Origin: Flavobacteriales bacterium
Lineage (GTDB): Bacteria > Bacteroidota > Bacteroidia > UBA10329
Direction: 5' to 3'
Length of the DNA: 64,000 nt
Assembly (NCBI GenBank): GCA_021739625.1
Contig: JAIPBJ010000009.1
Coordinates: forward strand, 1-64,000
The position numbers were made by a program, and so were the translations under genes. Shown piece after piece: positions 45,898 through 64,000 of the stretch; position 1 is the first letter of the stretch, and each line of letters starts with the position of its first letter. A model generated the notes under the pieces. It was not told the DNA's origin and made no database searches. It was given only the letters and a program-made list of their open reading frames with translations.

Positions 45898-45900
45898 GGC

Positions 45901-47100: not shown

Positions 47101-47363
47101 ACCACTTGCGGGTTGGCCAGAATGTGGGCGGCCATGCTGTTCACGTCATACAGGATCTTGCGGCCTTCCGCAGGGTCTGTGATCTTGATGCCGTATTCGC
47201 GCTCCATCAGCACCGAAAGTTCCAGCGCATCTATCGAGTCCAGGCCCAGCGCCTCACCGAACAGTGGCTCATCGTCCTTGATGTCCTCCGGCTTGATGTC
47301 CAACAGGTTCAGATACTTGATGATGTGCTGCTTCAGCTCGGCCTTCAGTGCTTTTTCTTCCAT
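47097..47363 (-). CDS. Acyl carrier protein
   Basis: FGEALGLDSIDALELSVLMEREYGI (phosphopantetheine Ser). Confidence 0.92.
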   Translation of the reverse strand: MEEKALKAELKQHIIKYLNLLDIKPEDIKDDEPLFGEALGLDSIDALELSVLMEREYGIKITDPAEGRKILYDVNSMAAHILANPQVV

Positions 47364-47525
47364 GGTCTTGGGCTTCGTGCCAGCCTGAGGCGGGCGGGCG
47401 GCAAAGTAACTCACAAATGTTGGAAATGTGCGCCTCAGACTCCGTGTCGAACAGGGCCAACGCATCAAAATTCACAACCACGAAAACACATTGATTATCA
47501 ACCAAATGCTCTTAACCACAAAGGA

Positions 47526-47565
47526 CACAAAGGCACACGAAGAAAATTCTTCGTGTGCCTTTGTG
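47526..47565. repeat. Perfect 19-bp-arm inverted repeat (cacaaaggcacacgaagaa-aa-ttcttcgtgtgcctttgtg)
   Basis: Read directly; an additional partial copy ccttcgtgtgcctttgtg at 47571-47588. Confidence 0.9.
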
Positions 47566-47598
47566 AAAGCCCTTCGTGTGCCTTTGTGTTGAAAATCA

Positions 47599-47619
47599 AA
47601 GTCTTCCGAAGGAAGACTT
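47599..47619. repeat. Hairpin AAGTCTTCC-GAA-GGAAGACTT
   Basis: 9-bp perfect arms, GAA loop. Confidence 0.7.
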
Positions 47620-47695
47620 CAAAATACTCTCCTTGGGGTTGGATTTGATGCGTTGGCCCTGCCGTGTCGAACCTCCGCTCCCATCAAACCCCCTC

Positions 47696-48349
47696 TCAGT
47701 GCCCCAGCTTCCTCAGCACCTCCCCCGGCACATCTTCCGCACGCGGCAGCACCGGCCGCCTCAAGGGCGCCAGCACGTGGTCCTCAGGCCCCTCGAAACT
47801 GTACAGGTCGCTCGGCAGACAACCGAAACCCTGGCACAGCTTCGTCATCACGCTCAGCCGCAAGGCCCGGTGATCACCGTTCAGCAGCATACGCGCAACC
47901 ATCGCACCCAGCCCCATTCCCTGTAGGAAAGCATACGGACTGCCAACGGTCCTCAACCTCACCAGCCGCCCCACGTCAAGCCGAAGCACCCCGCCACTCA
48001 CCTTCGGAGAAGGCCCCATGGCGGCCGTCAGCTCCTCCACCTTCGCCCAGAACTTCTCCACCTCAGCTTGGCTCAGCCCCTCCAACCGCTCCTGCAATGG
48101 CCGAACGCTGCCCTTGTTCAGCAACGCAAGTGGATCATTCTCTGCACCGAGCCAACCGAAGAGGTCGTTCGGCATGCACACCAACGCCTCGCACAGCCGC
48201 TGCACCGTCCTGTCCCTCAGCTGCACCACCCTGTCACCATGCGCCATCCCACGCGCCTCCGCGTAGGTGAAACCCCGCTGCGTCAAATAGCTCGTCACCC
48301 TCCGCCCCCCACGCGACAACACGAGCCGCTCTACATTCACTGTCAGCAT
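47696..48349 (-). CDS. Tandem XRE-like helix-turn-helix DNA-binding protein
   Basis: 217 aa with two internally homologous HTH units: FTYAEARGMAHGDRVVQLRDRTVQRLCEALVCMPNDLF and LGAMVARMLLNGDHRALRLSVMTKLCQGFGCLPSDLY. Confidence 0.72.
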   Translation of the reverse strand: MLTVNVERLVLSRGGRRVTSYLTQRGFTYAEARGMAHGDRVVQLRDRTVQRLCEALVCMPNDLFGWLGAENDPLALLNKGSVRPLQERLEGLSQAEVEKFWAKVEELTAAMGPSPKVSGGVLRLDVGRLVRLRTVGSPYAFLQGMGLGAMVARMLLNGDHRALRLSVMTKLCQGFGCLPSDLYSFEGPEDHVLAPLRRPVLPRAEDVPGEVLRKLGH

Positions 48350-48375
48350 CACTGTTCCGTTTTACACCGCAAATA

Positions 48376-48606
48376 TCATGTTTCTCAACCACATTACGCT
48401 GTGCTTTGACCACCTACAGATGTTCTTTCACATCGTTCCATTATTCTTTCACACCGCACTGTTGTGCTTTTGCATCTCACTGTTGTGCATTATGAATGGT
48501 GACATGTACTGTCACAAGTGACGATTATGCTTTCACAGTGGACATTTATGCTCTCGCACCGTACTGCTGTGCTTTGACAACTCACTGTTGTGCTTGAGCA
48601 ACAGTC
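48376..48606. repeat. Intergenic array of 11 imperfect 21-bp repeats (core TGTGCTTTCACA)
   Basis: Units start at 48376, 48397, 48418, 48439, 48460, 48481, 48502, 48523, 48544, 48565, 48586; T at core positions 1 and 3 is invariant and C at core position 5 is 10/11. Confidence 0.85.
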
Positions 48607-48655
48607 AGGGGAAGAAATGCCTATTCCTCCAACTATTCCTACCCTTGGTCACGGT

Positions 48656-50047
48656 TCACAGATACCCCAGCGTCTTCAGCATCCCCTCATGCCCCTGCTC
48701 CTCGCAGAACAGTTCGGACGTGATGTTCCCATCCTTGTCCTTGTCCACAACGATCTGGCGCGGTGACGGGATCAGGCAGTGCTGAATGCCCCCATAGCCG
48801 CCCAGCGCATTCTGGTACGCCCCCGTGTTGAAGAACCCGATCACCAACGGCTCTTCCTTGCGGTATTCCGGCAGGTAGATGTTGTTCACGTGCGCCTCCA
48901 CGTTGTAATAGTCCTGACTGTCACACGTCAGGCCGCCCAGATTCACCCGCTCAAAGGGGCTGCCCCAACGGTTCACCGCCAGCATGATGAACCGCTGATT
49001 GATGGCCCACGTGTCGGGCAGCGTGGTGATGAACGAGCTGTCGATCATGTTCCACCACTCCACATCGTTCTGCCTCTTCTGGTCGATGATGCTGTATATG
49101 GCCGCACCGCTGTCGGCCACGGTATAACTGCCGAACTCCGAGAAGATGTTGGGCTCGGGCACACCCTGCTCCTTGCAGAATTCCTTCACCTGCCGCACGA
49201 TCTCATCGGCCAGATACTGATAATCGAACTCCTCTGCCAGCGAATGCTTCACCGGGAAACCGCCCCCGATGTTCAGCGAATCGAGCGTGGGGCACTTCTT
49301 CCGCAATTCGCAATAGACCGCCAGGCATTTCTGCAACTCATTCCAGTAATAGAGACTGTCCTCGATGCCATTGTCGATGAAGAAGTGGAGCATCTTGAGC
49401 TTGAACAGCTTCTCCTTCTTGATCACATTGGTGTAATAGTCCACAATCTCGCGATGACGTATCCCCAGCCGGGCCGTGTAGTAGTTCGACTGCGGCTCCT
49501 CGCCCGTGGCAATGCGGATGCCGATGTTGCACTTCTTCTTCACCAGCGGACGGAAATGCTCCAGCTCCACCATGTTGTCGAGCACCGGCAGGCTGTTGAA
49601 CCCATCGTTGATAAGCCCCGCTATGAGCTCCACATAAAGCTGTCGCTTATAGCCGTTGTGAATGATGTAGGTGTCCTTGTCGATCTTCCCCTGCCCGTAG
49701 AGGTTGCGCACAATGTGAATATCGAACGATGAGGAGGTCTCCAGGTGGATGTCGTTCTTCAGCGCCTCGTTCAGCACAAAACTGAAATGCGAGCTCTTGG
49801 TGCAGTAGCAGTAGGTGTAGTCGCCCTTGTAGTCCACCTTCTTCATCGCCTTCGAGAAGAACCTCTTGGCGTGCTTTATCCGCTCCGATATCACTGGCAG
49901 ATAGGTGAGCTTCAGCGGAGTGCCGTACTGTTTCACAATGGCCATCAGGTCGATGCCCCGGAAATACAGTTGATTGTCCTTGACCTCGAAGCCGTCCTGA
50001 GGGAAGACGAAGGTCTGGTCGATGAGGTTGTAGTAGTTGTTCTCCAA
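48656..50047 (-). CDS. speA: Biosynthetic arginine decarboxylase (start trimmed to TTG: LENNYYNLIDQTF)
   Basis: DYTYCYCTKSSHFSFVLNEALKNDIHLETSSSFD...NIGGGFPVKHSL...; the ORF upstream of 50047 is antisense to the PPTase gene. Confidence 0.88.
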   Translation of the reverse strand: MENNYYNLIDQTFVFPQDGFEVKDNQLYFRGIDLMAIVKQYGTPLKLTYLPVISERIKHAKRFFSKAMKKVDYKGDYTYCYCTKSSHFSFVLNEALKNDIHLETSSSFDIHIVRNLYGQGKIDKDTYIIHNGYKRQLYVELIAGLINDGFNSLPVLDNMVELEHFRPLVKKKCNIGIRIATGEEPQSNYYTARLGIRHREIVDYYTNVIKKEKLFKLKMLHFFIDNGIEDSLYYWNELQKCLAVYCELRKKCPTLDSLNIGGGFPVKHSLAEEFDYQYLADEIVRQVKEFCKEQGVPEPNIFSEFGSYTVADSGAAIYSIIDQKRQNDVEWWNMIDSSFITTLPDTWAINQRFIMLAVNRWGSPFERVNLGGLTCDSQDYYNVEAHVNNIYLPEYRKEEPLVIGFFNTGAYQNALGGYGGIQHCLIPSPRQIVVDKDKDGNITSELFCEEQGHEGMLKTLGYL

Positions 50048-50149
50048 TTCCTGACGGTGAGGCGCGGGGTTTTTGCTGCGCGGGCGCAAAGAAAACGAAT
50101 GATGCGGTCGGAGGTCGGTTGCGCAGACATTGTTTCGCAGATTTGTGCC

Positions 50150-50755
50150 ATGCCTCTGGTCGACACGTTGGAAATTCCCGTTGGAAGGGTAGGCCTTTGG
50201 CGCATCGATGGCACCGAGGAGGCGCGCTACGATCTGCAATTCCCTTCTGTGGGCACCAAGGGCACGGTTCATCCCCGCACTTCGCTCCAACGCAAGGCAT
50301 CGCGGCTGCTTCTCGCGCAGATGCTCGGATTCCGCCCCGAACTGGAGAAGGATGCCGATGGCCGGCCCATGCTCACCAACAGCCCTCTCAATGTCTCCGT
50401 ATCGCACACGGACGGTTTCGCGGCCGTGATGCTGGGCCCCGGCCCGGTGTCCGTGGACGTGCAGGCCATAACCCCCCGCATCCTGAAACTCCGCGAACGC
50501 TACTTGAAACCTGAGGAGCAGCGCATGGCCCCGGACATGGACACGGCCACCCTGCTGTGGGCCGCCAAGGAGACGGTCTATAAGTTCTGCGCCACAGAGA
50601 GGCACGATTTCCGTGCACCCATCACCGTCCACCACATTTCAGAGGACACGATGGCCGCAACCCTCCTTGTCGGGGAAGAACTCTCCAGCCTGACCCTCGG
50701 CCACCGCTGGCTTTCAGGCGCGGTGCTGGTGTGGCTCGAATCAGTGCGCTCATAG
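50150..50755 (+). CDS. 4'-phosphopantetheinyl transferase superfamily protein
   Basis: GRPMLTNSPLNVSVSHTDGFAAVMLGPGPVSVDVQAI...LLWAAKETVYKF. Confidence 0.87.
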   Translation: MPLVDTLEIPVGRVGLWRIDGTEEARYDLQFPSVGTKGTVHPRTSLQRKASRLLLAQMLGFRPELEKDADGRPMLTNSPLNVSVSHTDGFAAVMLGPGPVSVDVQAITPRILKLRERYLKPEEQRMAPDMDTATLLWAAKETVYKFCATERHDFRAPITVHHISEDTMAATLLVGEELSSLTLGHRWLSGAVLVWLESVRS

Positions 50756-50827: not shown

Positions 50828-51658
50828 TCAGTCACCGATCAGGGCCATGAGGTCCTTCTCGGTCAATACCCGGTGACAGATGTTCATCCCCGCGATCACC
50901 TGCCCTTCGGGCCGGCCGCTCTTGATGAATGCCGCTGTGCGATAGTAATCGTCAGGAACGTGTATGAGGTCTATCTCGATGCCATCGTCCGTCTGTCTTC
51001 CAAAGGCGGTGACCAGTGGCGCCTCGACCGCTATCATTTTGATGACCAGGGCCAGCCGCGTGCGCCCCGACACGTTGGGCCGCGAATAGTGGAGCATGTT
51101 GTTGTGGAACACCACCGCATGCCCCGCCCTCACGCTCAGGTTGTCCATGTGTGCCTTGGCTAGGTCTCCCACCTGCCCATAGGGCGATGGGATGGAGAGC
51201 GCATGGTAGGGATGGGTGTAATGGCGGCTGCTTGGCAGTATGCAGAACTCGCCCCCACTGCCGTCCGCATCAATCAACGGCACCCAGATGCCGATGTGGT
51301 CATTGGGTTCGATGGTCATGGAGGGGTCCAGATGAAGCCCCAGTTCGCTGCCACTGTCACTCTTCTTCACATAATACATGGATATCACCACGCGGTAATT
51401 GTTCATGAGCTGTGCGATACGATGGCCGCAGATGCGCATGATGCCATCATGGAGCGCCCTGCGCACGGCCACCGTGGGCTCCGTCAGGCTGTCGAACTTG
51501 ATTCCGATCGCCTGCTCGTGCACGTGCGCATGGAACAGCCGGTGCAGCTGCACCATCTCCACATCACCGATGAACGGCACAACGCCATAGCCCACCGTGG
51601 CGAGCGATCGCTCCAATGCTGCATCCTCCATCCCTATCCGTCCCTGCTGTATGGTCAT
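50828..51658 (-). CDS. Phytanoyl-CoA dioxygenase (PhyH)-like Fe(II)/2OG oxygenase
   Basis: LGLHLDPSMT (HxD), MLHYSRPNVSGRTR (distal His/Arg). 4-bp overlap with the upstream gene. Confidence 0.83.
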   Translation of the reverse strand: MTIQQGRIGMEDAALERSLATVGYGVVPFIGDVEMVQLHRLFHAHVHEQAIGIKFDSLTEPTVAVRRALHDGIMRICGHRIAQLMNNYRVVISMYYVKKSDSGSELGLHLDPSMTIEPNDHIGIWVPLIDADGSGGEFCILPSSRHYTHPYHALSIPSPYGQVGDLAKAHMDNLSVRAGHAVVFHNNMLHYSRPNVSGRTRLALVIKMIAVEAPLVTAFGRQTDDGIEIDLIHVPDDYYRTAAFIKSGRPEGQVIAGMNICHRVLTEKDLMALIGD

Positions 51659-53328
51659 CGCGCTGCAAAATAAGCCCTTATGCGCTGACCCGAGGCCTCA
51701 AAGGATTCAAAGTCCGCTTCGGGGATGAATCGGATGTCCATGCCATGCACCGTGCTGGCATACCTGCTCAACAGATCGGTGCGGCCATCGGACGAGAGTA
51801 TCATGATGCCCTTCCCCTCGCGGCCCATATAGTCCATGAACTCGGTGAACATTGCCGACCGGCAGCCACAGATGCTGTCGAGCCGTTCACGGTATTGAGG
51901 TATCATGGACAGTTGTCCCTGATCGTAGAGCAGCACCCTGCCCATGGGCCTGTACATGCGGAACACATGCCCGTTCAGGATCTCGCGGGCGTTGGCATCG
52001 AGATAGAGCGTGCGTTCGCCACGATGGCCCTGCACGCGCTCAAGCACAGCGGCCCTCGATGCGGCCTCGCGTCCCAGCGCAGCAGCATCGAAGACCATGC
52101 TGACGACCACTATGGTGCTCACCAAGGCCATGACCCCTACTGCGACCCTGTTTTGCGCAACGAACCGCCCCGCCCCAAAGAACACCATGGTCACAAGGTT
52201 GAAGAGGATGCCTGTCTGCAACATGGGAACGTAATGCCATTTCTCCATCTTGAGGAAATAGGCCAATACCATGATGGTGAGCATTAGAAGGACATTGAAC
52301 ATCAGCACACGTAGCAGGCCAGCCTTGCCGGCCTCGCGGAACGAAAGCCATAGGGCCAGTACCATGATGAGCACAAAGACCCATGTGAGCACCTGGTTGG
52401 TGGCGAACGAGGGGCCGATGATAGAAAGGGCCACCGGGATGAACCGCGCAGAAGTTCCGCCAGCGAACGCTATGGCCTCTGATTTCTGATCCACCAGCCG
52501 CTCAAAAAGAGCGAGGTTCAGTTGGGAGGTGTCGTTGAAGAACGAGTATTTGATGGCTTCCACCTTCACGCTGTCAACCGCATTCTGGCTGTCAACCGGG
52601 GGCTGGAACCGCGAATCGGTGACGTAGAATATGTATGGTTCTATCTGGCTCAGAAAGGGAAGACGGGCATACTCATAAGCGATGGTCAACAGAAACATAG
52701 CGGACATGGTCCCGGGAAGCAACAACGCTTTGAACCTTGGCAATAATGGTCGCGGAGCAACGATGCCGATGAAAAGAAGCGCGATGAATGTGCCGCCCAG
52801 CGCAGAGTCGATGCGGGAGAAATAGCCGGTGATATAGAAGACCGACAACAGGCACACCTTGCCCCATGGTATCGGCCCCTCCTGTTTGGCAGTCAGATGC
52901 CAGATGCCCAGCATGGCGGACGCAGTGGTGAGGAAGCTCACCGATGAACCCGACAACTCGGTGATGACGAAACCGTAGGCCGGCAGCATGAGCAGAGGGA
53001 TGGCCCATGGAGGGATGTTCCGATGTTCAGGTCGCCCTTGCAGCACACCGTCCAGCACGTGGCCGGTCACGGCCAACGACACCAGCAGGCTGAGCCAAAA
53101 GGCCACCCCCATCCATGGCCACATTGGCAAAAGGCCGTGCAGGGGAGCCAGCAGCTTGCCAAGTGGCTCGGCACCATAAAAATAGAACTCGGTCAAAGGG
53201 CCGTTGGTAATGGTTCCGCTGATGAGGATGGCCGCAAATCCCTCATAGAATCCCCACACCGGGTCGGTGAGCAGGGTCAGGAGCAGCAGCACAATGAAAC
53301 TCGCCCCAAGATGTTTTGAAAAACTCAT
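51655..53328 (-). CDS. Polytopic membrane protein (glycosyltransferase-C-like)
   Basis: ~557 aa from MSFSKHLGASF, >10 hydrophobic segments then a soluble C-terminal domain; 4-bp overlaps with both neighbours. Confidence 0.72.
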   Translation of the reverse strand: MSFSKHLGASFIVLLLLTLLTDPVWGFYEGFAAILISGTITNGPLTEFYFYGAEPLGKLLAPLHGLLPMWPWMGVAFWLSLLVSLAVTGHVLDGVLQGRPEHRNIPPWAIPLLMLPAYGFVITELSGSSVSFLTTASAMLGIWHLTAKQEGPIPWGKVCLLSVFYITGYFSRIDSALGGTFIALLFIGIVAPRPLLPRFKALLLPGTMSAMFLLTIAYEYARLPFLSQIEPYIFYVTDSRFQPPVDSQNAVDSVKVEAIKYSFFNDTSQLNLALFERLVDQKSEAIAFAGGTSARFIPVALSIIGPSFATNQVLTWVFVLIMVLALWLSFREAGKAGLLRVLMFNVLLMLTIMVLAYFLKMEKWHYVPMLQTGILFNLVTMVFFGAGRFVAQNRVAVGVMALVSTIVVVSMVFDAAALGREAASRAAVLERVQGHRGERTLYLDANAREILNGHVFRMYRPMGRVLLYDQGQLSMIPQYRERLDSICGCRSAMFTEFMDYMGREGKGIMILSSDGRTDLLSRYASTVHGMDIRFIPEADFESFEASGQRIRAYFAAR

Positions 53329-54881
53329 TCGGCCATGGACGGGATGAGTACCGGAGCCTTGTCTGCGGGCAATATCTGCACACTCTTGCGCTTGATGAGG
53401 TCTGACAGGGCCATCTCGGCACGGCTCTCGGCACGATCGGTCATCAGGTTCCATACGGTGCGGAACAGCCTCCACGGCCTGAACAGATAGTTGGACCCAT
53501 AGAACACCAGCAGATATAGGATGACGTAGATCCGAAGTGCCCGCTCACCGATGTGCTTGTTGTAGAAACGGGTCTTATCGAATGTGTCCACGTAGATGAT
53601 CTGACAGAAGTAGTCGTCATTCTCCAGATCGATGTCGCCCTCATCTACCAGGCGGTTGAACAGCTCGCTGCCCGGATAGGGCGAGAAAACCCCCGGTGCC
53701 ATGTCGTTCACCCCATACCAACTGGCCTTCACCAGAAACCACATGCTCAGCCAGAGGTCCTTGTGGTGTTCGTCCGGAAACCCAAGGATGAAGTTGATCT
53801 TGATGTTCATCTTCTCCTTCGATGAATAGCTGATGGACTCCAGCATGTTGGACAGCGACACCTTCTTCTTGATGAGTCGGACCATCTCTTTGCTGCCGCT
53901 CTCAGGCGCATAGGTGATGTTGCGGCAGCCGCTCTTATACAGGTTATGGGCCACTTCTCGGTCTATGGCCTCGCTGCGGGTGCCGGCAGGGATCTGCCAA
54001 GTGATCTTCAGGTTGCGGGCCATTATCTCTTGGGCAAATTCGAGGATCCATTCCCGCTTGATGATGGCCGTGAGGTCATAGAAGTCGAAGTTGTGAATGC
54101 CGAAACGGTTCACATACGATTCTATCTCATCGGCCACGAGCTGCGGTGAGCGCATGTAGTAGCGCGTGCCCCACATCTGCGGACTGCTGCAGAACGTGCA
54201 CTGGAACGGGCATCCGCGGGTGGCCATCAGCGGCAGCGAGAACGAACCGTGATCCACCCCGTAGGTTATGCCATGGCGGTTGTAATCGTCCAACGGAAAA
54301 AGCTCCCATGCGGGCAGCGGCATGTTGTCCACATCCTTAACTCTGGCCCTTGCTGCCGATTTCGCACAGGTGCCGTCTGCGGCACGGTAGGCGATGCCCG
54401 CCACGTGCTCCAGCGGTGTGCCGTCACGCAGGGCGTTCACCAGAGCTATCACCGTCTCCTCGCCCTCGCCAAGCACACAGGCCTGCAGGTGCTTGGTCTG
54501 TTTGATGCACAGCTCGGGCACAGCAGTGATGTGCTCGCCTCCAGCGATCACCTTGGCTTTGGGAAATGCCTCGCCAACGCAGTCTATGAGCTTGCGGTAG
54601 AACAGCCAGTTGCCACTGAACATCATGGTGAAACCGATGATGTCTGTGCCCGGTGCGATCAGGTGAGCGGTCTGGGCCTCAGTCAGACCATTGATAACGA
54701 TATCATCATTGAAATGCACGAACTGCTTTGGAGCATGCGCAAATGAGTCGATGATCTGCACCGTATGGCCTGCTGCCTTCAACGCACCGGCTATGAACGC
54801 CAAACCCAGCGGGGGCGATGGCTTCAGGCTCACGGTCATGGGCCGCACGATCCTGGAGGGGTTTATCAGACATATCTTCAT
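53325..54881 (-). CDS. B12-binding-type radical SAM protein (copy A)
   Basis: MKICLINPSRIVRPMTVSLKPSPPLGLAFIAGAL; RGCPFQCTFCSSPQMWG (CxxxCxxC); FYGSNYLFRPWR. Confidence 0.9.
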   Translation of the reverse strand: MKICLINPSRIVRPMTVSLKPSPPLGLAFIAGALKAAGHTVQIIDSFAHAPKQFVHFNDDIVINGLTEAQTAHLIAPGTDIIGFTMMFSGNWLFYRKLIDCVGEAFPKAKVIAGGEHITAVPELCIKQTKHLQACVLGEGEETVIALVNALRDGTPLEHVAGIAYRAADGTCAKSAARARVKDVDNMPLPAWELFPLDDYNRHGITYGVDHGSFSLPLMATRGCPFQCTFCSSPQMWGTRYYMRSPQLVADEIESYVNRFGIHNFDFYDLTAIIKREWILEFAQEIMARNLKITWQIPAGTRSEAIDREVAHNLYKSGCRNITYAPESGSKEMVRLIKKKVSLSNMLESISYSSKEKMNIKINFILGFPDEHHKDLWLSMWFLVKASWYGVNDMAPGVFSPYPGSELFNRLVDEGDIDLENDDYFCQIIYVDTFDKTRFYNKHIGERALRIYVILYLLVFYGSNYLFRPWRLFRTVWNLMTDRAESRAEMALSDLIKRKSVQILPADKAPVLIPSMAE

Positions 54882-54968
54882 TACTCCTTTGCTTAGAATG
54901 ATTTGCCCGGTCCGATGACGAATTTGAATCTGGAGAACATTCCTGATCGGTCTGTCCGGACCTACGGG

Positions 54969-54976
54969 CAAATGTA
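54969..54976 (-). promoter_or_regulatory. Candidate -7 element TACATTTG (radical SAM A operon)
   Basis: caaatgta on + strand. Confidence 0.5.
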
Positions 54977-55043
54977 GCCAACCCATTGGCGCGGGTAAAA
55001 CCTTGGCGCAGGTCGCAGGACCACCATCTGTGCAATAAAGCCT

Positions 55044-55051
55044 TAGGTTTG
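55044..55051 (+). promoter_or_regulatory. Candidate -7 element TAGGTTTG (SGNH operon)
   Basis: 20 nt upstream of ATG 55071. Confidence 0.45.
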
Positions 55052-55070
55052 CGTTCCCCTCCCGTCTCCA

Positions 55071-56219
55071 ATGGCATCAAAAAGCCCGTCAGGCCTATCG
55101 TTTGTAAATGTGTCCATTGCGGTGCTGCTCACAGCCGTGCTGGTGGAAGCGGTATTCAGACTTGTAGTGTTCAAGGAGGGTACAATGTACCAGAACCTGC
55201 ACCACGGGCTCATAAACGGAACACCGGGCTATGCCTCGGCCCCGTTTCTCAATTATGTGAACAACCCTAAGCTCAGGAATGACCGGGGCGAGTATCAGGT
55301 GAACACCATGGGCATCCGCTATCCCAACGAGATAGAGATCCCCAAACCCGACAGCACTCTCCGCATTCTCTTCCTTGGCGGCTCCACCACCTTTGGCGAT
55401 GTGGATGACGACTATCCGATGTTCTCCGCCATCATTGAAGACTCGCTGGCCGGAAAGATCCGCTCGATCGACCCGCGTTTCAACAAGGTGGAATGCCTCA
55501 ATGCCGGGGCACACGGCCTCACATCAGCAGAACTGCTCACCCACTATCAGTTCCGTCATCAGTATGTGGAACCAGATCTGGTAGTGGTGCATGCGGGTGC
55601 CAATGACGCCTTCTGCTATTGCGATGTGAACGGGGCCACCTACCAGCCCGACTATCATAACTGTAGAAGGGTTTTCAGAGACATCACCGTGGCCACAGAT
55701 GTGGACAAGGCACTGATGCACTCGCGGGCCGTGGCCTTCGTGCTGATACATCTCAAGTTCAGTGAATATCTTGAGACCACCTTCGAGCACAATCCGTTCT
55801 TCAGCTTCAGGCCGGGCGAGCCGTGGCATCCGCTGGCCAACGATTCACTTCGCTCTGCCAAGTACAATGCTTTCCACAATAACATCAGCGCCATTGTGAA
55901 ACTGGCCTCCATGCGCGAAGCCGATGTGCTGCTTGTGCCTGAGGTGATTGACAGCACCTTCATGCCTGAGCCGTTCAACGAGGTGTTGCCTCGGTCGCTC
56001 AGGATGCATTGCGGCTTTCTCGAAAGCATAGCAGCGCTGGAACCAAACGCCACCTACTGCCATCTGTCCACCGAGCTGTTCACCAAGGACGTGTTCATCA
56101 CCAATGATGACGGGTTGCATGTGAGCGCCAAGGGCGAGGAGCTCAAGGCACAGATGATGGAGGCGGCCATTGTAGAAATACTTCGGAGTAGGAACGAAAA
56201 AGCCACGCATCCCCTCTGA
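55071..56219 (+). CDS. Membrane-anchored SGNH-hydrolase-like protein (copy 1)
   Basis: N-terminal TM; FLGGSTTFGD, VVHAGANDAF, DDGLHVSAKGEE. Confidence 0.83.
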   Translation: MASKSPSGLSFVNVSIAVLLTAVLVEAVFRLVVFKEGTMYQNLHHGLINGTPGYASAPFLNYVNNPKLRNDRGEYQVNTMGIRYPNEIEIPKPDSTLRILFLGGSTTFGDVDDDYPMFSAIIEDSLAGKIRSIDPRFNKVECLNAGAHGLTSAELLTHYQFRHQYVEPDLVVVHAGANDAFCYCDVNGATYQPDYHNCRRVFRDITVATDVDKALMHSRAVAFVLIHLKFSEYLETTFEHNPFFSFRPGEPWHPLANDSLRSAKYNAFHNNISAIVKLASMREADVLLVPEVIDSTFMPEPFNEVLPRSLRMHCGFLESIAALEPNATYCHLSTELFTKDVFITNDDGLHVSAKGEELKAQMMEAAIVEILRSRNEKATHPL

Positions 56220-56220
56220 C

Positions 56221-57351
56221 ATGTCCAAGGCACACCCATGGAAGTGGCCGGTCATCGGGCTGTTCATCCTGTTGTTGGTGGCAGCCATAGAGATTACGGT
56301 ACGACTGGTGGTCTTCAAAGACAGCAGCGCCTACAATGGCGTGCGCAACTATGTGCTTTCCACAGAGAGCTCCCCGCAGTATAGGGCGCAGCCCTTTCTC
56401 AACTACATGAATTTTCCGGGGATGCCCGATCCCGAGGGCGTGTCGCAGATCAACCGGATGGGTCTGCGCCATCGCACTGAGGCCACCCTGCCGAAACCTG
56501 CCGAAAACTACCGGATGCTCTTTCTTGGCGGATCGACCACATTCGGGGAGGTGGACACCCCTGAAGAGGCCTTTCCTGCCATTGTGCAGGAGACCCTCAA
56601 CCATTCGGAAGTGGCGCTCCCTTCAGGGGCACGGACGGTGGAATGTCTGAACGGGGGCATGGGCGCGGCCACATCGGCCGAGATCTTTACCCACTACCTC
56701 ATGCGCTATCGCTACCTCGATGCCGACATGGTGGTGATACACGCAGGCATCAATGACGCATTCGCCTATCCCGCCCTTCCTGGCTATGTCTATCAGCCGG
56801 ATTATCACACCAGCAAGCGGGTGATGCAGGACATGCCCACAGTGACCCCCGCCCTTCGCCTGCTGTGCCGCTCCTTTACGTTGGCGAGCATTCTCATACC
56901 TCACTACTTTCCTATTCAGGTCAATTCAGATTTCACCACCAACGACTTCTTTGATTATCACAACCGCGATCAGTGGCTTGCCTCAGGGAACGTGGCTGCG
57001 CGCGACACCACATACAACGCATTCTACCGCAACCTACAGGCCCTGATAAAACTGTTGAAGGAAGAAGGGAAGGCCGTGCTTCTGGTGACCGAGGTGGTGG
57101 AATACTCCATGATGCCCGTTGAAGCACGCAGCATGCTCGAGGGCGGGATCGAATGGAATGCCGAACTGATGACGAAACTGGCTGCCGAGATGGAGGTGCC
57201 GCTATTGAAGTTGGACAAGGCCGAATTTCCGCCCGACCTGTTCATCGCCAATGACGGCATTCATGTCAATGGCCTTGGCGAACAGAAGAAGGCAGAGCGG
57301 ATTACTGCTGCCATCCGCAGCGCATGGGATGCAAACGTGCCACCGCATTGA
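56221..57351 (+). CDS. Membrane-anchored SGNH-hydrolase-like protein (copy 2)
   Basis: N-terminal TM; FLGGSTTFGE, VIHAGINDAF, NDGIHVNGLGEQ. Confidence 0.83.
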   Translation: MSKAHPWKWPVIGLFILLLVAAIEITVRLVVFKDSSAYNGVRNYVLSTESSPQYRAQPFLNYMNFPGMPDPEGVSQINRMGLRHRTEATLPKPAENYRMLFLGGSTTFGEVDTPEEAFPAIVQETLNHSEVALPSGARTVECLNGGMGAATSAEIFTHYLMRYRYLDADMVVIHAGINDAFAYPALPGYVYQPDYHTSKRVMQDMPTVTPALRLLCRSFTLASILIPHYFPIQVNSDFTTNDFFDYHNRDQWLASGNVAARDTTYNAFYRNLQALIKLLKEEGKAVLLVTEVVEYSMMPVEARSMLEGGIEWNAELMTKLAAEMEVPLLKLDKAEFPPDLFIANDGIHVNGLGEQKKAERITAAIRSAWDANVPPH

Positions 57352-57440
57352 CCGGGCTGGCTGCTATTGCCCACAATCCCTTATTCCGACACCGCATCCA
57401 ATTCCTCCTATGCACTCCAACCCCTCTAAGGTGGTTCATC

Positions 57441-57448
57441 TACATTTG
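57441..57448 (+). promoter_or_regulatory. Candidate -7 element TACATTTG (radical SAM B)
   Basis: Upstream of ATG 57517. Confidence 0.5.
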
Positions 57449-57516
57449 TGTCCCGATGCCCCTTGAATCAAAGTGGGATCAGGACAGATGCTCCATTTAA
57501 AAGCCCATCAACATAT

Positions 57517-59097
57517 ATGAAGGTCTGTCTTATCAAACCTCCTGTTCTCTACAAGGCCGTGTCGGTGTCACTGATGCCTTCGCCTCCGTTGGGACTGGCA
57601 TACATTGCCGGGGCGCTTGTGGCCGCAGGCCACGAGGTGTCGGTGATCGATGCCACTGCTGAAGGTCTGAGCCGATCGGAGCTTTTCGAGGACGGTATCT
57701 ACCTGTTCGGACTCAACGCAAGGGATATCATTGACAGGATGGACCCTGATGCCGAGGTCATCTGCTTCAGCTTCATGTTCACCAACAACTGGCTCTATGA
57801 CAGACATCTGGTGGCGGAGGTGCGCAGGGCCTTTCCACACGCCATCATGGTGGCGGGCGGGGAGCATGCCACTGCAGCACCGGAGTTCTGCCTGCATCAG
57901 GCGCCCGGCCTGGACCATATAGTGCTCGGTGAGGGAGAGGCGACCATCATTGATCTGCTGACCAATTGCAAGAACCCTCAAGATGTGGACGGCATCGTTT
58001 ACAGGGATGGTGATGGCATCAGGGTCAACCGGAAGGGCAGCGTGAAGCGGATCAGCGCCATCGGGAACATTGCCAGGCCCGCATGGGAATTGTTCCCGCT
58101 GTCGAAATACTTTGAGAACGGTGTGGCGTATGGCATCTACAGGGGCAGGACGCTCCCGGTCATGGCCTCGCGCGGCTGCCCTTATGACTGCACCTTCTGT
58201 AGCAGCCCACAGATGTGGGGCAGAACCTACAGCATCAGAGAGCCGGAGGATTTTGTAGATGAGCTTGAGATGCTCAGAAACAACCATGGCGTCACCAACT
58301 TTGAGCTCTATGACCTCACTGCCATAATTCACCGCGAGTGGATCATACGCACCGCCAAGGAGATCATCAGGCGCAACCTGAACATCACCTACCAGATACC
58401 GGCCGGAACCCGTGCGGAGGCCATCGACCTTGAGGTGGCCGAATACCTGTACAGGTCGGGGTGCAAGAACATCACCTATGCCCCAGAGTCAGGCTCGGTC
58501 CGTGTTCTCAAGGACATCAGGAAGAAGGTGAAGCTCGATAGGATGCTCAAGTCCATCAGAGAATCCAACAGGGCGGGGCTCAACATCAAGCTCAACATCA
58601 TCATCGGTTTTCCCGATGAGACGCATCTCGACATCTGGAAGACCATCTGGTTCCTTGTAAAGGCCAGTTGGCACGGGGCGAACGACACCTCCCCGGCCGT
58701 CTTCTCGCCTTATCCCGGATCGCGCATGTTCGATGACCTGCTGAAGAAAGGACAGGTGGACCTCTACGATGACCGATACATCAAGGAGATCATCAACTCC
58801 TATGACCTCTGGCCGGGCAAGGTCTATGCAGAATGTGTGAGCCCCTTCTTTGTACGTTTGTACACCCTTGTCATCATGGCCCTGTTCTACGGTTCAAACT
58901 TTCTGTTCAGGCCGATACGCCTGTTCCACCTGATGCGCAACGTGATGAGCGACCGGCACGAGTCGCGGCTCGAGCTCTTCATTTCCAAGTCGCTCATACG
59001 CGGACGGTCTGTAAGGACAACCCGGTCTGCGGTTCACAGTAGGACGGATTCCGAGACGCGTGTGGCCCCCGTCAGCCCACATCATACCCTACACTAA
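57517..59097 (+). CDS. B12-binding-type radical SAM protein (copy B)
   Basis: MKVCLIKPPVLYKAVSVSLMPSPPLGLAYIAGAL; RGCPYDCTFCSSPQMWG; FYGSNFLFRPIR. Confidence 0.9.
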   Translation: MKVCLIKPPVLYKAVSVSLMPSPPLGLAYIAGALVAAGHEVSVIDATAEGLSRSELFEDGIYLFGLNARDIIDRMDPDAEVICFSFMFTNNWLYDRHLVAEVRRAFPHAIMVAGGEHATAAPEFCLHQAPGLDHIVLGEGEATIIDLLTNCKNPQDVDGIVYRDGDGIRVNRKGSVKRISAIGNIARPAWELFPLSKYFENGVAYGIYRGRTLPVMASRGCPYDCTFCSSPQMWGRTYSIREPEDFVDELEMLRNNHGVTNFELYDLTAIIHREWIIRTAKEIIRRNLNITYQIPAGTRAEAIDLEVAEYLYRSGCKNITYAPESGSVRVLKDIRKKVKLDRMLKSIRESNRAGLNIKLNIIIGFPDETHLDIWKTIWFLVKASWHGANDTSPAVFSPYPGSRMFDDLLKKGQVDLYDDRYIKEIINSYDLWPGKVYAECVSPFFVRLYTLVIMALFYGSNFLFRPIRLFHLMRNVMSDRHESRLELFISKSLIRGRSVRTTRSAVHSRTDSETRVAPVSPHHTLH

Positions 59098-59109
59098 CAG
59101 CTCAACAGC

Positions 59110-59886
59110 ATGCCAGCAGACAGCTATGTTTGGCCAGAGGGCGAGGAGATCGTCTATCTCAGGCCTCCCAAGGAAGAGTACACCGGAAAACTGGAGTACT
59201 TCTACGACCCATCCCTCTTCCCCGAACTGCAACCGCTGGTGGACAACTGGCAGTTGCTGCGCGAAGAGATCGTGGCCCACGAGCGCACCAAAGGCATCAT
59301 GGCCGAGATGGATTCGCATGTGCCTCCCACCAACACCAAAGACCAATGGAGTCACATCTATCTGATGAACTACCTGTGGAAGTTTCACCGCAATCTGAAA
59401 CGGTTCCCGGTCATCACCAGTGTGATTGAGAAGATTCCCAACTGCGTGTATGCCACCATCAGCGTGCTGCCTCCGCACACGGACATCCTGCCCCACTGCG
59501 GCAATAGCAACGGCATTGTACGCGCCCATATTGCGCTCATCATCCCCGCTCCGGCCCCTGTTTGTGCCATAAAGGTGGGCGATGAGATGCACGGCTGGGA
59601 AGAAGGCAAGTTGCTCACCTTCACCATTGTGAACAGACACGAGGCATGGAACCGCTCGGACCACAGGCGCTACATCATGATCATCGACATTGTGCCGGAG
59701 ATGTTCAGGCACCGCACCATGGAGATCTGCGCCAAGAACCTTGGCACCTCCACCTTCAATGTCCTCTACGACAGGTTCAGGTTCATAGGCAAGCTGCCCA
59801 ATGCCGTGCATGAGCTGATGGTGGCATCCTTCAGCATCTTCTGGCGGCTCTATCTGCCCATTCAGCGCAGATTGACTTTTCTCTGA
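59110..59886 (+). CDS. Aspartyl/asparaginyl beta-hydroxylase-like Fe(II)/2OG oxygenase
   Basis: LPPHTDILPHCGNSNGIVRAHIALIIP and TFTIVNRHEAWNRSDHRRYIMIIDI. Confidence 0.83.
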   Translation: MPADSYVWPEGEEIVYLRPPKEEYTGKLEYFYDPSLFPELQPLVDNWQLLREEIVAHERTKGIMAEMDSHVPPTNTKDQWSHIYLMNYLWKFHRNLKRFPVITSVIEKIPNCVYATISVLPPHTDILPHCGNSNGIVRAHIALIIPAPAPVCAIKVGDEMHGWEEGKLLTFTIVNRHEAWNRSDHRRYIMIIDIVPEMFRHRTMEICAKNLGTSTFNVLYDRFRFIGKLPNAVHELMVASFSIFWRLYLPIQRRLTFL

Positions 59887-59898
59887 GAAGGATTCTGC

Positions 59899-61474
59899 TC
59901 AAGTTATGTTCATGGGTTGCGGTGCCACCTTGGGCGGTTGCTCCAGCACCGTCACCCTCCTTCTTTTCATCATTTCGATGATGGTCATCTCCCCGCGCGA
60001 CTCCGCCCTGTCCATTATCACGTTGCGCAGCGTGCGCAGCAGTCGCCAAGGGCGGAAGAGATAGTTGGAACCGTAGAACACCACGAAGTAGAGCACCTGA
60101 TATGCCCGGAGTGCCGCTGTGCCGATATGGTAGTTGTACATCCGCGCGTCCGAAACGCTGTCCACGCTCACAATCTCCTTGAAATAGGCATCCGAGTACG
60201 GGTCCACCTTCCCATCGCGCACCAGACGGTCGAACAGCTCGCTGCCCGGATAGGGCGAGAAGAACCCGGGCGACATGTCGTGCGCCCCATGCCAACTGGC
60301 CTTTATCAGAAACAGCATGGTCATCCACACATGGCGGTGCCGCTCGTCAGGGAACGCAAGGATGATGTTGAGCTTGATGTTCATCCGCTCCTTGGCCGAA
60401 TGGCCCATGGACAGCAGCATGTTGGGCAACGACACCTTTTTCTTGATGGCCTTCAGCATCTCTACACTGCCGCTTTCGGGCGCATAGGTGATGTTGCGGC
60501 AACCTGACCGGTACAGCGCATGGGCCACCTCCCTGTCTATGGCCTCGCTGCGCGTGCCGCCCGGTATCTGCCACGTGATGTTGAGCCCCCTTCTGGTCAA
60601 CTCTCCCGTGAATTCCATGATCCACTCCTTTTTGATGATGGCGGTGAGGTCGTGGAAATCGAAGTTGCTGATGCCGTAGGTGGCGATGTAGGTCTCCATC
60701 TCATCGGCCACATCAGCGGGCGTGCGCATGTAGTAGCGCGTGCCCCACATCTGCGGACTGCTGCAGAAGGTGCAGCGATAGGGGCAGCCCCGCGTGGCCA
60801 GCAATGGCAGCGATACGGTGTCGCGCTCCACCCCGAAGGTCACACGGTTCTGCATATAGTCCTTCATGGGCAGCAGGTCCCAGGCGGGCCATGGGGCGCT
60901 GTCGAGGTCGCGCATGCGGCTGCGGGCGGGCGTCCGCTGACACTGGCCTTCCCTGTCCCGGAAGGCGATGCCCGCCATGCCCTCCATCGGCAGGCCGAGA
61001 CCGATGGCCTGCACCAGCTCCACCACGGTCTCCTCGCCCTCGCCCATCACTATGGCCGAGAGGGCGCGGGTCTGCGCAAAACAAAGCTCCGGTATGGCGG
61101 TGGCGTGCTCACCGCCCGCGATGATCGTGGCCGCTGGAATCAGCTCGCCAAGGCGGTCGGCCAGTTGACGGTAGAGCGGCCAGTTGACGGTAGAGCGGCC
61201 AGTTGCCACTGAACATCATGGAGATGCCGATGATCTCCGTGGCAGGGTCCATGAGGGCGGCCATCTGGTCGGGGGTGAGGCCGTGCGCCAGAATGTCACC
61301 GTCATACCTCACATACTGCTCCATCCCGCCCGCCAATGCGTCTATCACCTGCACACGGTGGCCGGCATCGCGCAGCGCACCGGCCACGTAGGCAAGCCCC
61401 AGCGGCATGGAGGGCCTGTGGGCCAAAGAGGCCAGTCTGATGAGCCGTGGGGGGTTTACAAGACAGATGTTCAT
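59899..61474 (-). pseudogene. B12-binding-type radical SAM protein (copy C), frameshifted by a 19-bp tandem duplication
   Basis: 5' part (MNICLVNPPRLIRLASLAHRPSMPLGLAYVAGAL...MMFSGNWPLYRQLA) and 3' part (NWPLYRQLADRLGELIPAATIIAGGEHATAIPELC...RGCPYRCTFCSSPQMWG) in different frames, overlapping at the duplication. Removing 19 bp gives 1557 bp, the same length as copy A. Confidence 0.88.
61159..61205. repeat. 19-bp tandem repeat (ggccagttgacggtagagc) x ~2.5
   Basis: 61159-61177, 61178-61196, partial 61197-61205, read directly. Confidence 0.95.
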
Positions 61475-61508
61475 GGCACGGGCGTGGCTGTCTGGCGGCA
61501 TGGGCTGT

Positions 61509-61516
61509 CAAAGATA
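61509..61516 (-). promoter_or_regulatory. Candidate -7 element TATCTTTG (radical SAM C)
   Basis: caaagata on + strand, upstream of the 61474 start. Confidence 0.45.
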
Positions 61517-61552
61517 GGCAGGATGCAAAAGGGCGCTATGGCCGCAAAGCCC

Positions 61553-61560
61553 TACTTTTG
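61553..61560 (+). promoter_or_regulatory. Candidate -7 element TACTTTTG (radical SAM D)
   Basis: 32 nt upstream of ATG 61592. Confidence 0.45.
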
Positions 61561-61591
61561 GGCATGGGCATCCAACCCTGTACCTGCTGAT

Positions 61592-63208
61592 ATGCGCAAA
61601 CTCAAAGTGACCTTCGTGGGGCTCGGCACCGAGCAGTTGGGCGTGAGCCAGCTCAGCGCCATCGCCAAGCAGCACGGGCATCAGGTGGGGCTGGCCTTCA
61701 GCGCATCGCTGTTCCACGACAGGTTCAATCTGGAGTTCCCTACCATCTCGCCCTTCTTTGACGACACCTCGGAGACCATCGCTGCCATACGCGAGCAGCG
61801 GCCCGATGTGCTGGCCTTCTCGGCCCTCACCAGCACCTACCAGTGGATGCTCGAAGTGGCGGCCAAGGCCAAGGAGATGGACCCGAACGTGCGCACCGTG
61901 TTCGGGGGCGTGCATCCATCGGCAGTGCCCGAGCGGGTATTGGCACGGCCGCAGGTCGATTTTGTGGTCATTGGCGAAGGGGACGATGCCTTTCCGCGCA
62001 TCCTCAGCATGGTGGCCGAGGGAACGTATGGCGACCCCATCTTCAACACCCGCTACAAGATGGCCGATGGCCGCGTGGTGGCCGGCATGCAGAAGGGTTT
62101 CCTGCAGCACCTCGACTCGCTGCCGTTCTATGACAAGCCCTTGTGGGAGGACCATGTGCGCATAGGTGACCTCTACCTCACCATGGCATCGCGCGGCTGC
62201 CCCTATCGCTGCACCTTCTGCTTCAACAACTTCTTTGCGAAGCTGCCCGAGGAGAAGAGTGGCAAGTATGTGCGCCTGCGCAGCGTGGACCACATGATAG
62301 CCGAGCTGAAGATCGCCAAGCGCAGGTACAGGCCCCATATCATCGACTTTCAGGACGATGTGTTCACCACCAGCAAGAAATGGCTGAAGGAGTTCACAGA
62401 GGTTTACAAAAGGGAGATAGGCACGCCCTACAACATCCTCACGCATCCGCGCTATTTCGATGCGGAGGTGGCCACGTGGCTCAAAGAGTCGGGCTGCCAG
62501 TGGGTGCAGATGGGCGTGCAGAGCCTCGATGAGGATTTCAAGAAGGACAACCTGATGCGCTACGAGAAGAGCGACCACGTGAGCAGCGCCCTGCAACTGA
62601 TGCACACCCACGGCCTCCATGCCAAGGTGGATCACATGTTCGGCCTGCCCAACGAGCCGGTGGAGGCGCAGGAGCTGGCCCGCGAGCTGTACAGCACCCA
62701 TCACCCCAAGCGCATACAGACCTTCTGGACCTGCTATCTGCCCGGCACTGCCATGATGAAGGAGGCCGAAGCCAACGGTTCGCTATCGAAGGAGCAGGCA
62801 GAGAAGATCAACGAGGGCGAGGACTTCTATTTCTTCCGCAACACCGACAACATCACCGATCCGAAGCTCATGGCGCGCTATCAGGCCTACGAGGTGCTGT
62901 TCCGTGTGATGCCCGCCCTGCCCGAAAGCTGGAAGGCCAAGGTGCAGGTGCGCCACTTCGAGCGGCTGCCGCATTTCCTCATCCGCCCGCTGTCGCTGCT
63001 GGCCGACATCCTATCGGGCTTCAAGCAGCGCAACCCCGAGTTCAGCGCCTATGCATGGCACAACCTCTACCACCTGTGGAAATTCACCGGAAGGAAACTG
63101 GGCTTCAAGGTGGGCAAGGCCTCGCAGGTGTTTGAGGATGTGACGTTCGATGTGCCCATGCCGACCGTGGAGCCGGAAACAACGGCCCTTGTGCAGGATG
63201 CCGCCTGA
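61592..63208 (+). CDS. B12-binding-type radical SAM protein (copy D, divergent)
   Basis: MRKLKVTFVGLGTEQLGVSQLSAIAKQHGH; FGGVHPSAVPE; SRGCPYRCTFCFNNFF. Confidence 0.9.
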   Translation: MRKLKVTFVGLGTEQLGVSQLSAIAKQHGHQVGLAFSASLFHDRFNLEFPTISPFFDDTSETIAAIREQRPDVLAFSALTSTYQWMLEVAAKAKEMDPNVRTVFGGVHPSAVPERVLARPQVDFVVIGEGDDAFPRILSMVAEGTYGDPIFNTRYKMADGRVVAGMQKGFLQHLDSLPFYDKPLWEDHVRIGDLYLTMASRGCPYRCTFCFNNFFAKLPEEKSGKYVRLRSVDHMIAELKIAKRRYRPHIIDFQDDVFTTSKKWLKEFTEVYKREIGTPYNILTHPRYFDAEVATWLKESGCQWVQMGVQSLDEDFKKDNLMRYEKSDHVSSALQLMHTHGLHAKVDHMFGLPNEPVEAQELARELYSTHHPKRIQTFWTCYLPGTAMMKEAEANGSLSKEQAEKINEGEDFYFFRNTDNITDPKLMARYQAYEVLFRVMPALPESWKAKVQVRHFERLPHFLIRPLSLLADILSGFKQRNPEFSAYAWHNLYHLWKFTGRKLGFKVGKASQVFEDVTFDVPMPTVEPETTALVQDAA

Positions 63209-63217
63209 AACGTGCCC

Positions 63218-64000
63218 ATGCCCCGGTCCATCATAGCGCATCTTGCCCGCTGGCCCGCTGCCATGGCCGTGGCGCTCCTCCTATCGGCCCTTGCCTACCT
63301 GTTTGTGGGCGCGTTCGTGGAGGACAACATGACCATCGTCATCGCCATCTTCTACGGCTACATCTCGTCACCGCCCATTGGGCTTTGGATAACGGACTAT
63401 TACACCTTCCTCATCCCCATCATCGCGTGGGGGTGCGAGCTGCTGCCGGGCGTGCCAGTGTTCGGGCTCTTATGGGCCGCGCAGCTTGTGGCATGGCTTG
63501 CGGCCGTGGTGATGTTCGTGGCGGGGCGCACTGCGCAGGCCACGCGCGCAGGGCAGGTGCTGCTGTGGGCCACTGCCCTGCTGCTGCTGAGCGAGGCCCT
63601 TTCGCACCACATCGTGCGGTTCTCCATCATCGCCTCGTTCACCGGGCTGCTGTTCATGCACGAGCGGCAGCGCAACGGACAGCGGCCGCAGGCCATGGAC
63701 ACGGGGCTGTTCCTACTGGGGCTGTTCATGCGCATGCACTCGGCCATCATCATGCTGGCGTTCTTCATGGCCCATGGGGTGCTCACAGGGCGGAGCATTG
63801 CCGACACCTTACGGGCGCACCGCTGGCATCTGGCGGTGTCGGCCCTGCTGCTGGTCACCTATCAGTTGCACGGGGTGCTCACCGAGAATATGGGCACCGT
63901 CATCGAGGCCAACTACGAGTATGCCCTGCTGGAGAAGGACCGCATGTATCCGCTGGCCGACATGCAGACCCATGCCGACAGTGTGCGCCACGCGGCACTC
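63218..64000 (+). CDS. Polytopic membrane protein, 3' truncated by window edge (not in ORF track)
   Basis: Open frame from ATG 63218 (MPRSIIAHLARWPAAMAVALLLSALAYLFVG...) to window end, 261 codons, multiple hydrophobic segments. Confidence 0.75.
   Translation, partial: MPRSIIAHLARWPAAMAVALLLSALAYLFVGAFVEDNMTIVIAIFYGYISSPPIGLWITDYYTFLIPIIAWGCELLPGVPVFGLLWAAQLVAWLAAVVMFVAGRTAQATRAGQVLLWATALLLLSEALSHHIVRFSIIASFTGLLFMHERQRNGQRPQAMDTGLFLLGLFMRMHSAIIMLAFFMAHGVLTGRSIADTLRAHRWHLAVSALLLVTYQLHGVLTENMGTVIEANYEYALLEKDRMYPLADMQTHADSVRHAAL

Follow-up and report, generated by a model that had tools for sequence, protein, structure and literature searches.

A Bacteroidia gene cluster of cobalamin-type radical SAM enzymes and 2-oxoglutarate oxygenases, possibly part of a system that tailors a surface glycan

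Introduction

B12-radical enzymes of known function belong mainly to pathways for natural products, cofactors, hopanoids and peptides. Here, we describe a cluster of genes for enzymes of this kind at the end of the window, by which we mean the first 64,000 bases of contig C139 (GenBank JAIPBJ010000009.1, which stops at 64014) of G000, the 3.69-Mb draft genome of a Flavobacteriales bacterium (GCA_021739625.1); G, C and L numbers are our handles for genomes, contigs and loci. The closest described enzymes are the class-1 cobalamin-dependent radical S-adenosylmethionine (rSAM) enzymes, in which a B12-binding Rossmann domain is followed by a CxxxCxxC radical SAM barrel. They include, according to structure titles and the literature, the methylases MgmA, TsrM, CysS and TokK, the diol dehydratase AprD4, which acts on paromamine, and OxsB, which contracts a ring (PMC13331322). 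AprD4, with an aminoglycoside as its substrate, is a precedent for a sugar-type target, and the Kdo 3-hydroxylase KdoO, which hydroxylates lipid-linked 3-deoxy-D-manno-oct-2-ulosonic acid (Kdo), is a precedent for the Fe/2-oxoglutarate (2OG) hydroxylation of a membrane-linked sugar that we propose for the oxygenases of the cluster (PMC3492934).

The locus departs from each of these systems. The rSAM family represented in the cluster adds to the common architecture C-terminal helices with an FY....L.RP.R motif, a DLT motif and a surface-glycan neighbourhood, whereas the gene of KdoO stands alone without a radical SAM partner. With surface polysaccharide loci that depend on ATP-binding cassette (ABC) transporters or are linked to undecaprenyl phosphate (Und-P), the loci share family 2 glycosyltransferases (GT2), epimerases, ABC exporter parts and, in relatives, a GT2 resembling Und-P glycosyltransferases beside an rSAM gene, but differ in uniting several B12-radical enzymes with 2OG oxygenases of at least four kinds in one system. 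The enzyme classes are already known; their combination and context are new. In a literature search with little subscription coverage, neither the cluster nor the presence of B12-radical SAM enzymes in loci for surface polysaccharides was described; a Xanthomonas biofilm paper that contains both terms (PMC3130047) concerns unrelated genes. We propose, with a probability of roughly 0.55, that the cluster belongs to a tailoring system, conserved in the Bacteroidia and specific to them, which acts on a membrane-bound surface glycan or glycolipid, probably one linked to polyprenyl phosphate.

Results

The cluster consists of the following features, in which the rSAM enzymes are named A to D.

50828..51658, minus strand: PhyH-type Fe(II)/2OG oxygenase, 276 amino acids (Pfam PF05721, E 3.8e-12; HLD motif at residue 109)
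51655..53328, minus strand: polytopic membrane protein 1, orphan family, 557 amino acids (7 hydrophobic segments in a simple scan)
53325..54881, minus strand: predicted cobalamin rSAM enzyme A, 518 amino acids (Pfam B12-binding and Radical_SAM; structure model; tree)
55071..56219, plus strand: membrane-anchored SGNH/GDSL protein 1 (PF13472, E 5.4e-9; GGS, GAND, DGLH; single N-terminal hydrophobic segment)
56221..57351, plus strand: membrane-anchored SGNH/GDSL protein 2 (PF13472, E 8.9e-12; GGS, GIND, DGIH; single N-terminal hydrophobic segment)
57517..59097, plus strand: predicted cobalamin rSAM enzyme B (Pfam; orthologues in G006, G087 and Umea in the tree)
59110..59886, plus strand: Asp/Asn-hydroxylase-like (AspH-like) PF05118 Fe/2OG oxygenase with a conserved C-terminal extension (Asp_Arg_Hydrox, E 1.5e-33)
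59899..61501, minus strand: predicted cobalamin rSAM enzyme C, split by a frameshift into 59899-61209 and 61109-61501 (tblastn with protein A)
61158..61195: CGGCCAGTTGACGGTAGAG twice in tandem plus a partial third copy, inside rSAM C, the cause of its frameshift
61592..63208, plus strand: predicted cobalamin rSAM enzyme D, alternative start 61538 (Pfam; orthologues in G152, Umea and UBA1941)
63212..64000, plus strand: polytopic membrane protein 2, same orphan family as protein 1 (family-profile match; cut at the contig end)

An earlier note on this DNA had counted four cobalamin-type radical SAM enzymes, two membrane-anchored SGNH proteins, two 2OG oxygenases and two polytopic membrane proteins. 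The SGNH proteins and the oxygenases are as it described, the former with PF13472 above its cut-off, one N-terminal anchor apiece and the catalytic blocks I, III and V (GGS, a GDS variant; GxND; DGxH). Its count of rSAM enzymes holds for A, B and D, in which both PF02310 (B12-binding) and PF04055 (Radical_SAM) exceed their Pfam cut-offs; C also passes for PF04055 but is broken by the frameshift, and its B12-binding match stays below cut-off because the gene is split. Both membrane proteins are present and belong to one family, although the second is incomplete. The translational coupling claimed for rSAM A, membrane protein 1 and the PhyH gene is real: ATGA overlaps of 4 bp join A to membrane protein 1 and membrane protein 1 to PhyH.

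The cluster is not a chance neighbourhood, and the genes do co-occur in related Bacteroidia, whose gene neighbourhoods the note had named as the way to refute it. An A/B-type rSAM (E <= 1e-60) was found in 4 of the 388 genomes of the class that were scanned, and all 4 carry a cluster-type AspH-like oxygenase near one rSAM gene (the window and contig C38 in the own genome, C14 in G006, C48 in G087 and C32 in G152). When 396 genomes of the phylum were searched with its profile, this oxygenase appeared at a comparable score in none of 395 other genomes, and the association has a Fisher P of about 1e-9, which is approximate since the two samples differ. Five other Bacteroidia genomes, two or more of them from different families, contain orthologues of rSAM A, B and D, of the AspH-like oxygenase and of the membrane proteins together, mostly as close neighbours. 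The fullest versions were reached by scanning a collection with one genome per species. In Umea_bin-04588, a single 48-kb contig encodes three A-type rSAM enzymes, rSAM D (64% identity), rSAM B (57%), two other B12-rSAM enzymes, three AspH-like and about ten PhyH oxygenases, an orphan membrane protein, an SGNH protein, glycosyltransferases and an ABC ATPase. A stretch of about 30 kb in UBA1941 holds an SGNH gene, rSAM B, a WelO5-family gene, rSAM D (68%), AspH, a cupin, rSAM A (63%), a second AspH, two orphan membrane-protein genes, an rSAM gene of the type found on C38, PhyH and a gene for a membrane protein with tetratricopeptide repeats (TPR). Genes found on three contigs of the own genome (C139, C114 and C38) are thus neighbours in a relative. 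In the own genome, related genes are also present outside the window, on C114 and C38. The own genome has 11 matches to the B12-binding domain, the highest number among the 58 relatives compared.

The rSAM subfamily reaches much further, with at least 572 related stretches in many phyla in a scan of one genome per species; the hosts among the matches listed include Elusimicrobiota, Omnitrophota, Rhodospirillales, Myxococcota, Planctomycetota, Nitrospinota, Actinomycetota, Pelagibacteraceae and others. The culturable Magnetospirillum moscoviense and Minicystis rosea also have members of the family. We surveyed the neighbourhoods of 80 rSAM loci with a codon-scored automatic gene caller, naming flanking genes from representative sequences and then checking the direct neighbours with Pfam. 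Within 8 kb of the rSAM gene, a GT2 lies in about 41/80 loci, a short-chain dehydrogenase/reductase (SDR) epimerase in about 34/80 and a DegT-type aminotransferase in 16/80. The 109 direct neighbours include Glycos_transf_2 (16), Radical_SAM (12), methyltransferase-domain (9) and Epimerase (7) proteins, and the enrichment of GT2 over a background of about 0.9% of genes (29 matches in the 3.69 Mb of the own genome) corresponds to roughly P 6e-15 for the rSAM family as a whole. The orphan membrane-protein, AspH-like and SGNH families were met in 0/76 loci outside the Bacteroidia; the rSAM family is thus broad and linked to surface glycans, whereas the gene combination appears specific to the Bacteroidia.

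An AlphaFold2 (AF2) model of rSAM A, built from 40 sequences with a predicted local distance difference test (pLDDT) score of 91, was compared with solved structures by Foldseek and matched MgmA, AprD4, TsrM, OxsB, CysS and TokK at a probability of 1.00 and 15-18% identity. On the basis of domains and model, A to D are predicted to be nearest to the class-1 cobalamin-dependent type; since the solved fold neighbours differ in chemistry, the fold does not tell which reaction A to D catalyze. The top NCBIfam profiles for A to D are BchE, HpnJ, HpnR and the Sden_1168 P-methyltransferase, but with best scores of 107-173 bits against cut-offs of 481-578: BchE (TIGR02026, cut-off 481 bits) gives 158.6 bits for A, 162.8 for B, 124.1 for a piece of C and 77.2 for D, HpnJ (TIGR03471, cut-off 578) gives 107-124, and the P-methyltransferase (NF038361, cut-off 575) gives 173.1 for A and 167.9 for B. 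No pathway partners of these four families were found for A to D. The window contains CTFCSSPQMWG, SPYPGS and FYGSN[YF]LFRP[WI]R exactly three times each, in A, B and C, and CTFCFNNFF once, in D, which agrees with the motifs named in the earlier note. As a family signature, CSSPQMWG is narrow (C[ST]SPxMWG is present in 7/79 members, CxxxCxxC and DLT in 79/79), but FY....L.RP.R, near the C terminus after a hydrophobic helix, is near-invariant across the family. In A and B, the hydrophobic segment around FYGSN exceeds or comes close to a simple threshold for membrane segments, in keeping with a substrate bound to the membrane.

In a maximum-likelihood tree of 31 rSAM proteins, B groups with its counterparts in G006, G087 and Umea (100/100), D with those in G152 and Umea (100/100), and A and C with those in G087 and G152 (96/96). 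The A/B/C-type enzymes of the Bacteroidia form a group of their own (97/96), separate from the enzymes of other phyla; the orthologues of D in G152, Umea and UBA1941 are 64-68% identical to it. The tree suggests that A and C arose by a lineage-specific duplication (94/91). A tblastn search with protein A covers the gene of C only through two frames, and the frameshift arises because a 19-bp unit, CGGCCAGTTGACGGTAGAG, is duplicated in tandem and 19 is not a multiple of three; each copy opens with the 10-bp direct repeat CGGCCAGTTG. Slippage in the population and an assembly error are both possible origins of the duplication, and C is possibly inactive in this assembly.

The AspH-like protein matches AspH structures of the Protein Data Bank (PDB) at E about 1e-31. 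Its best NCBIfam matches are OlsC (96.0 bits, cut-off 450) and LpxO (71.2 bits, cut-off 500), neither of which is reached. It keeps the core fold region of OlsC/LpxO and mammalian AspH (PF05118) but differs from OlsC/LpxO in its scores far under the cut-offs, in its conserved C-terminal extension and in its position near rSAM genes in the genomes examined. The own genome has two PF05118 genes in total (window and C38), and both adjoin rSAM genes of this kind.

The label "GT-C-like", given earlier to the membrane proteins, is not proven: the profile of their family found no match in Pfam or the PDB, and an AF2 model of membrane protein 1 from three sequences (pLDDT 40) was discarded. Their genes are closely tied to rSAM genes: of the nine orphan-family genes in the examined loci, eight are no more than 1 kb from an rSAM gene, and seven of these eight no more than 60 bp. 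Membrane protein 2, recognized by the family-profile search, is 55 bp from rSAM D, and remote homologues of membrane protein 1 adjoin rSAM genes in relatives. By eye only, a pair of acidic residues was noted behind the first hydrophobic segment in several homologues. The GT-C reading has indirect support from the PgfS/ArnC-like GT2 next to rSAM B in G006 and from G026, which gave no A/B-type rSAM but has an orphan-family gene next to a similar GT2. The orphan membrane proteins are candidate GT-C glycosyltransferases or transporters.

Contig C114 of the own genome encodes an ABC ATPase, two B12-rSAM enzymes, a WelO5-family protein, a cupin and a PhyH array, and one rSAM paralogue there has the ABC ATPase gene before it and a PhyH gene after it. 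Contig C38 encodes AspH, two B12-rSAM enzymes, three SPASM radical SAM proteins, AsnB, a NodU-like carbamoyltransferase, a UbiA-like protein, a methyltransferase and a TPR membrane protein; the SPASM/AsnB/NodU-like/UbiA-like/TPR set, in L113 11403-15941 and L018 1-16010, is close to the two further B12-rSAM genes. AsnB exceeds its NCBIfam cut-off and also scores high against TIGR03108, an exosortase-system amidotransferase known from exopolysaccharide loci. The rSAM B and AspH genes of G006 adjoin a full-length PgfS/ArnC-like Und-P GT2, four PhyH genes and an ABC-2 permease. ABC-transporter parts thus occur on C14 of G006 (permease) and on C114 and in Umea (ATPases), with GT2 genes in each, and none on the window contig; no match to the Wzt C-terminal domain was obtained. 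G006 is a genome of the window's own genus; CAMDOM010000014.1 (L019), labelled Chryseobacterium gleum, is the same contig, and its species label is probably wrong.

The WelO5-family protein (PF22814, E 1.8e-23; L015 15349-16161, at about 30.3-31.2 kb of C114) has relatives in Umea, G087 and UBA1941. In WelO5-type halogenases, the acidic residue of the HxD/E iron triad is replaced by a small residue. We rejected halogenation for the C114 protein, whose HxD iron motif is intact (SLHKDGD) and hydroxylase-like. The PhyH tandem array of C114 (L016 6495-11290) includes double-domain members (639 amino acids). Several genomes of the genus have 10-18 PhyH matches, also without these rSAM genes; PhyH arrays can therefore act independently of them. 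A multihaem cytochrome c-like gene (L016 3-1124; similar in L110, L111 and Umea C167) is mostly found beside the B12-rSAM type C114b.

The mycobacterial decaprenyl-phosphoryl-arabinose pathway combines UbiA-like, DprE1-like and GT-C proteins. In L110 1968-4891 (contig C61 of G006), the genes for a DprE1-like oxidase (161 bits against a cut-off of 500) and for an SDR have an orphan membrane-protein gene and an AspH-like gene as neighbours, a hint of a polyprenyl-phospho-pentose donor in G006 only. The arabinan hypothesis was rejected and kept merely as a variant, as G000 has no good match to the oxidase and the UbiA-like protein matches general prenyltransferases only.

Beside the cluster, window positions 44848-50755 hold a small type II synthase set: a ketoacyl synthase (KAS) that resembles chain-length factors and has no C-terminal domain, a full KAS, an acyl carrier protein (ACP), a pyridoxal phosphate (PLP)-dependent decarboxylase (SpeA/LysA/DokD-like, scores below cut-offs) and a phosphopantetheinyl transferase (PPTase). 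Homologues of KAS, ACP, PPTase and PLP-decarboxylase were found near rSAM genes in 0/80 loci, and we rejected them as cluster members, as they are absent from related loci.

Discussion

The earlier note's modification cluster is real and still looks undescribed, with repeated radical chemistry predicted and no characterised pathway or curated family matched. Its substrate, left there as a lipid, surface glycan or secondary metabolite, can be narrowed, the neighbourhoods favouring a surface glycan or a polyprenyl-linked glycoconjugate; as a whole, that interpretation is partly supported.

The glycan context is supported by the neighbourhoods; from there, we infer a substrate, an order of steps, the individual reactions and a role for the membrane proteins. 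In the system, which is spread over several contigs in the own genome, a lipid-linked sugar would be modified in the cytoplasm by both the radical enzymes and the oxygenases. The rSAM enzymes A to D would most likely place methyl groups onto unactivated carbons, or else perform another radical C-C or C-O step, and the AspH-like and PhyH-like Fe/2OG enzymes would hydroxylate the same molecule. An orphan polytopic protein may transfer or move the modified unit at the membrane, and the anchored SGNH proteins would attach or take off acyl groups outside.

Several observations speak against a glycan as the target. The window holds no sequence-proven glycosyltransferase, the glycan genes being on other contigs of the own genome or in relatives, and the top curated matches of the AspH-like protein are the lipid acyl hydroxylases OlsC and LpxO, though far below cut-off. 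The DprE1-like oxidase, part of one possible donor pathway, is present in G006 and not in G000, so that no single glycan pathway is conserved. Finally, the GT2 statistic covers the whole rSAM family rather than A to D, and was obtained with an automatic gene caller and a one-genome background.

The OlsC and LpxO matches lead to a different proposal, in which no glycan is involved: the rSAM enzymes would methylate or cyclize acyl or isoprenoid chains of membrane lipids, which the AspH- and PhyH-like enzymes would hydroxylate as OlsC and LpxO do. BchE, HpnJ, HpnR and ladderane-type lipid rSAM profiles among the matches of A to D would fit, as would the UbiA-like prenyltransferase and the methyltransferase with a CMAS match on C38. 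Every such profile match is far below cut-off, however, and the flanks carry, family-wide, glycosyltransferase and nucleotide-sugar genes rather than lipid genes, and we consider lipid tailoring unlikely. We see about as little chance of a secreted secondary metabolite, built by the rSAM and 2OG enzymes together with the KAS/ACP/PPTase/PLP-decarboxylase set and the AsnB and carbamoyltransferase of C38. The enzyme mix is typical of natural-product pathways, which many cobalamin rSAM enzymes of known function serve (PMC13331322), and the AsnB and NodU-like carbamoyltransferase of C38 point the same way; yet the synthase set is missing from the 80 loci, the flanks are polysaccharide-like across phyla, and AsnB scores high against the exopolysaccharide-locus amidotransferase too.

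Less probable again is a modification of proteins or lipoproteins, in which the TPR polytopic and orphan membrane proteins would glycosylate secreted proteins and the cluster would tailor the glycan or the protein itself through SPASM rSAM enzymes and AspH. A TPR membrane protein does lie near cluster genes in C38, G006, G152 and UBA1941, AspH relatives hydroxylate Asp/Asn residues of proteins, and C38 has its three SPASM genes. Next to the genes, we noticed no conserved protein that could serve as precursor or target, although no systematic search was made, and the ABC exporter genes beside PhyH arrays suit a polymer. We prefer the tailoring of a lipid-linked surface glycan or glycolipid.

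A broader version of that preferred reading is more tentative, and we regard it as possible rather than probable: a widespread branch of B12-rSAM enzymes would edit polyprenyl-linked surface glycans, and in Bacteroidia a system with multiple rSAM enzymes and four kinds of 2OG oxygenase would yield a sugar polymer that is C-methylated or edited in its carbon skeleton and heavily hydroxylated. We know of no such sugars in bacterial surface polysaccharides. The rSAM-AspH-membrane-protein core is small enough for tests in a culturable relative or a heterologous host. An rSAM branch of at least 572 loci in many phyla lies in surface-polysaccharide loci without an assigned substrate and, if surface sugars are indeed what it edits, this would be new chemistry for bacterial cell envelopes, which govern phage attack, grazing and host contact.

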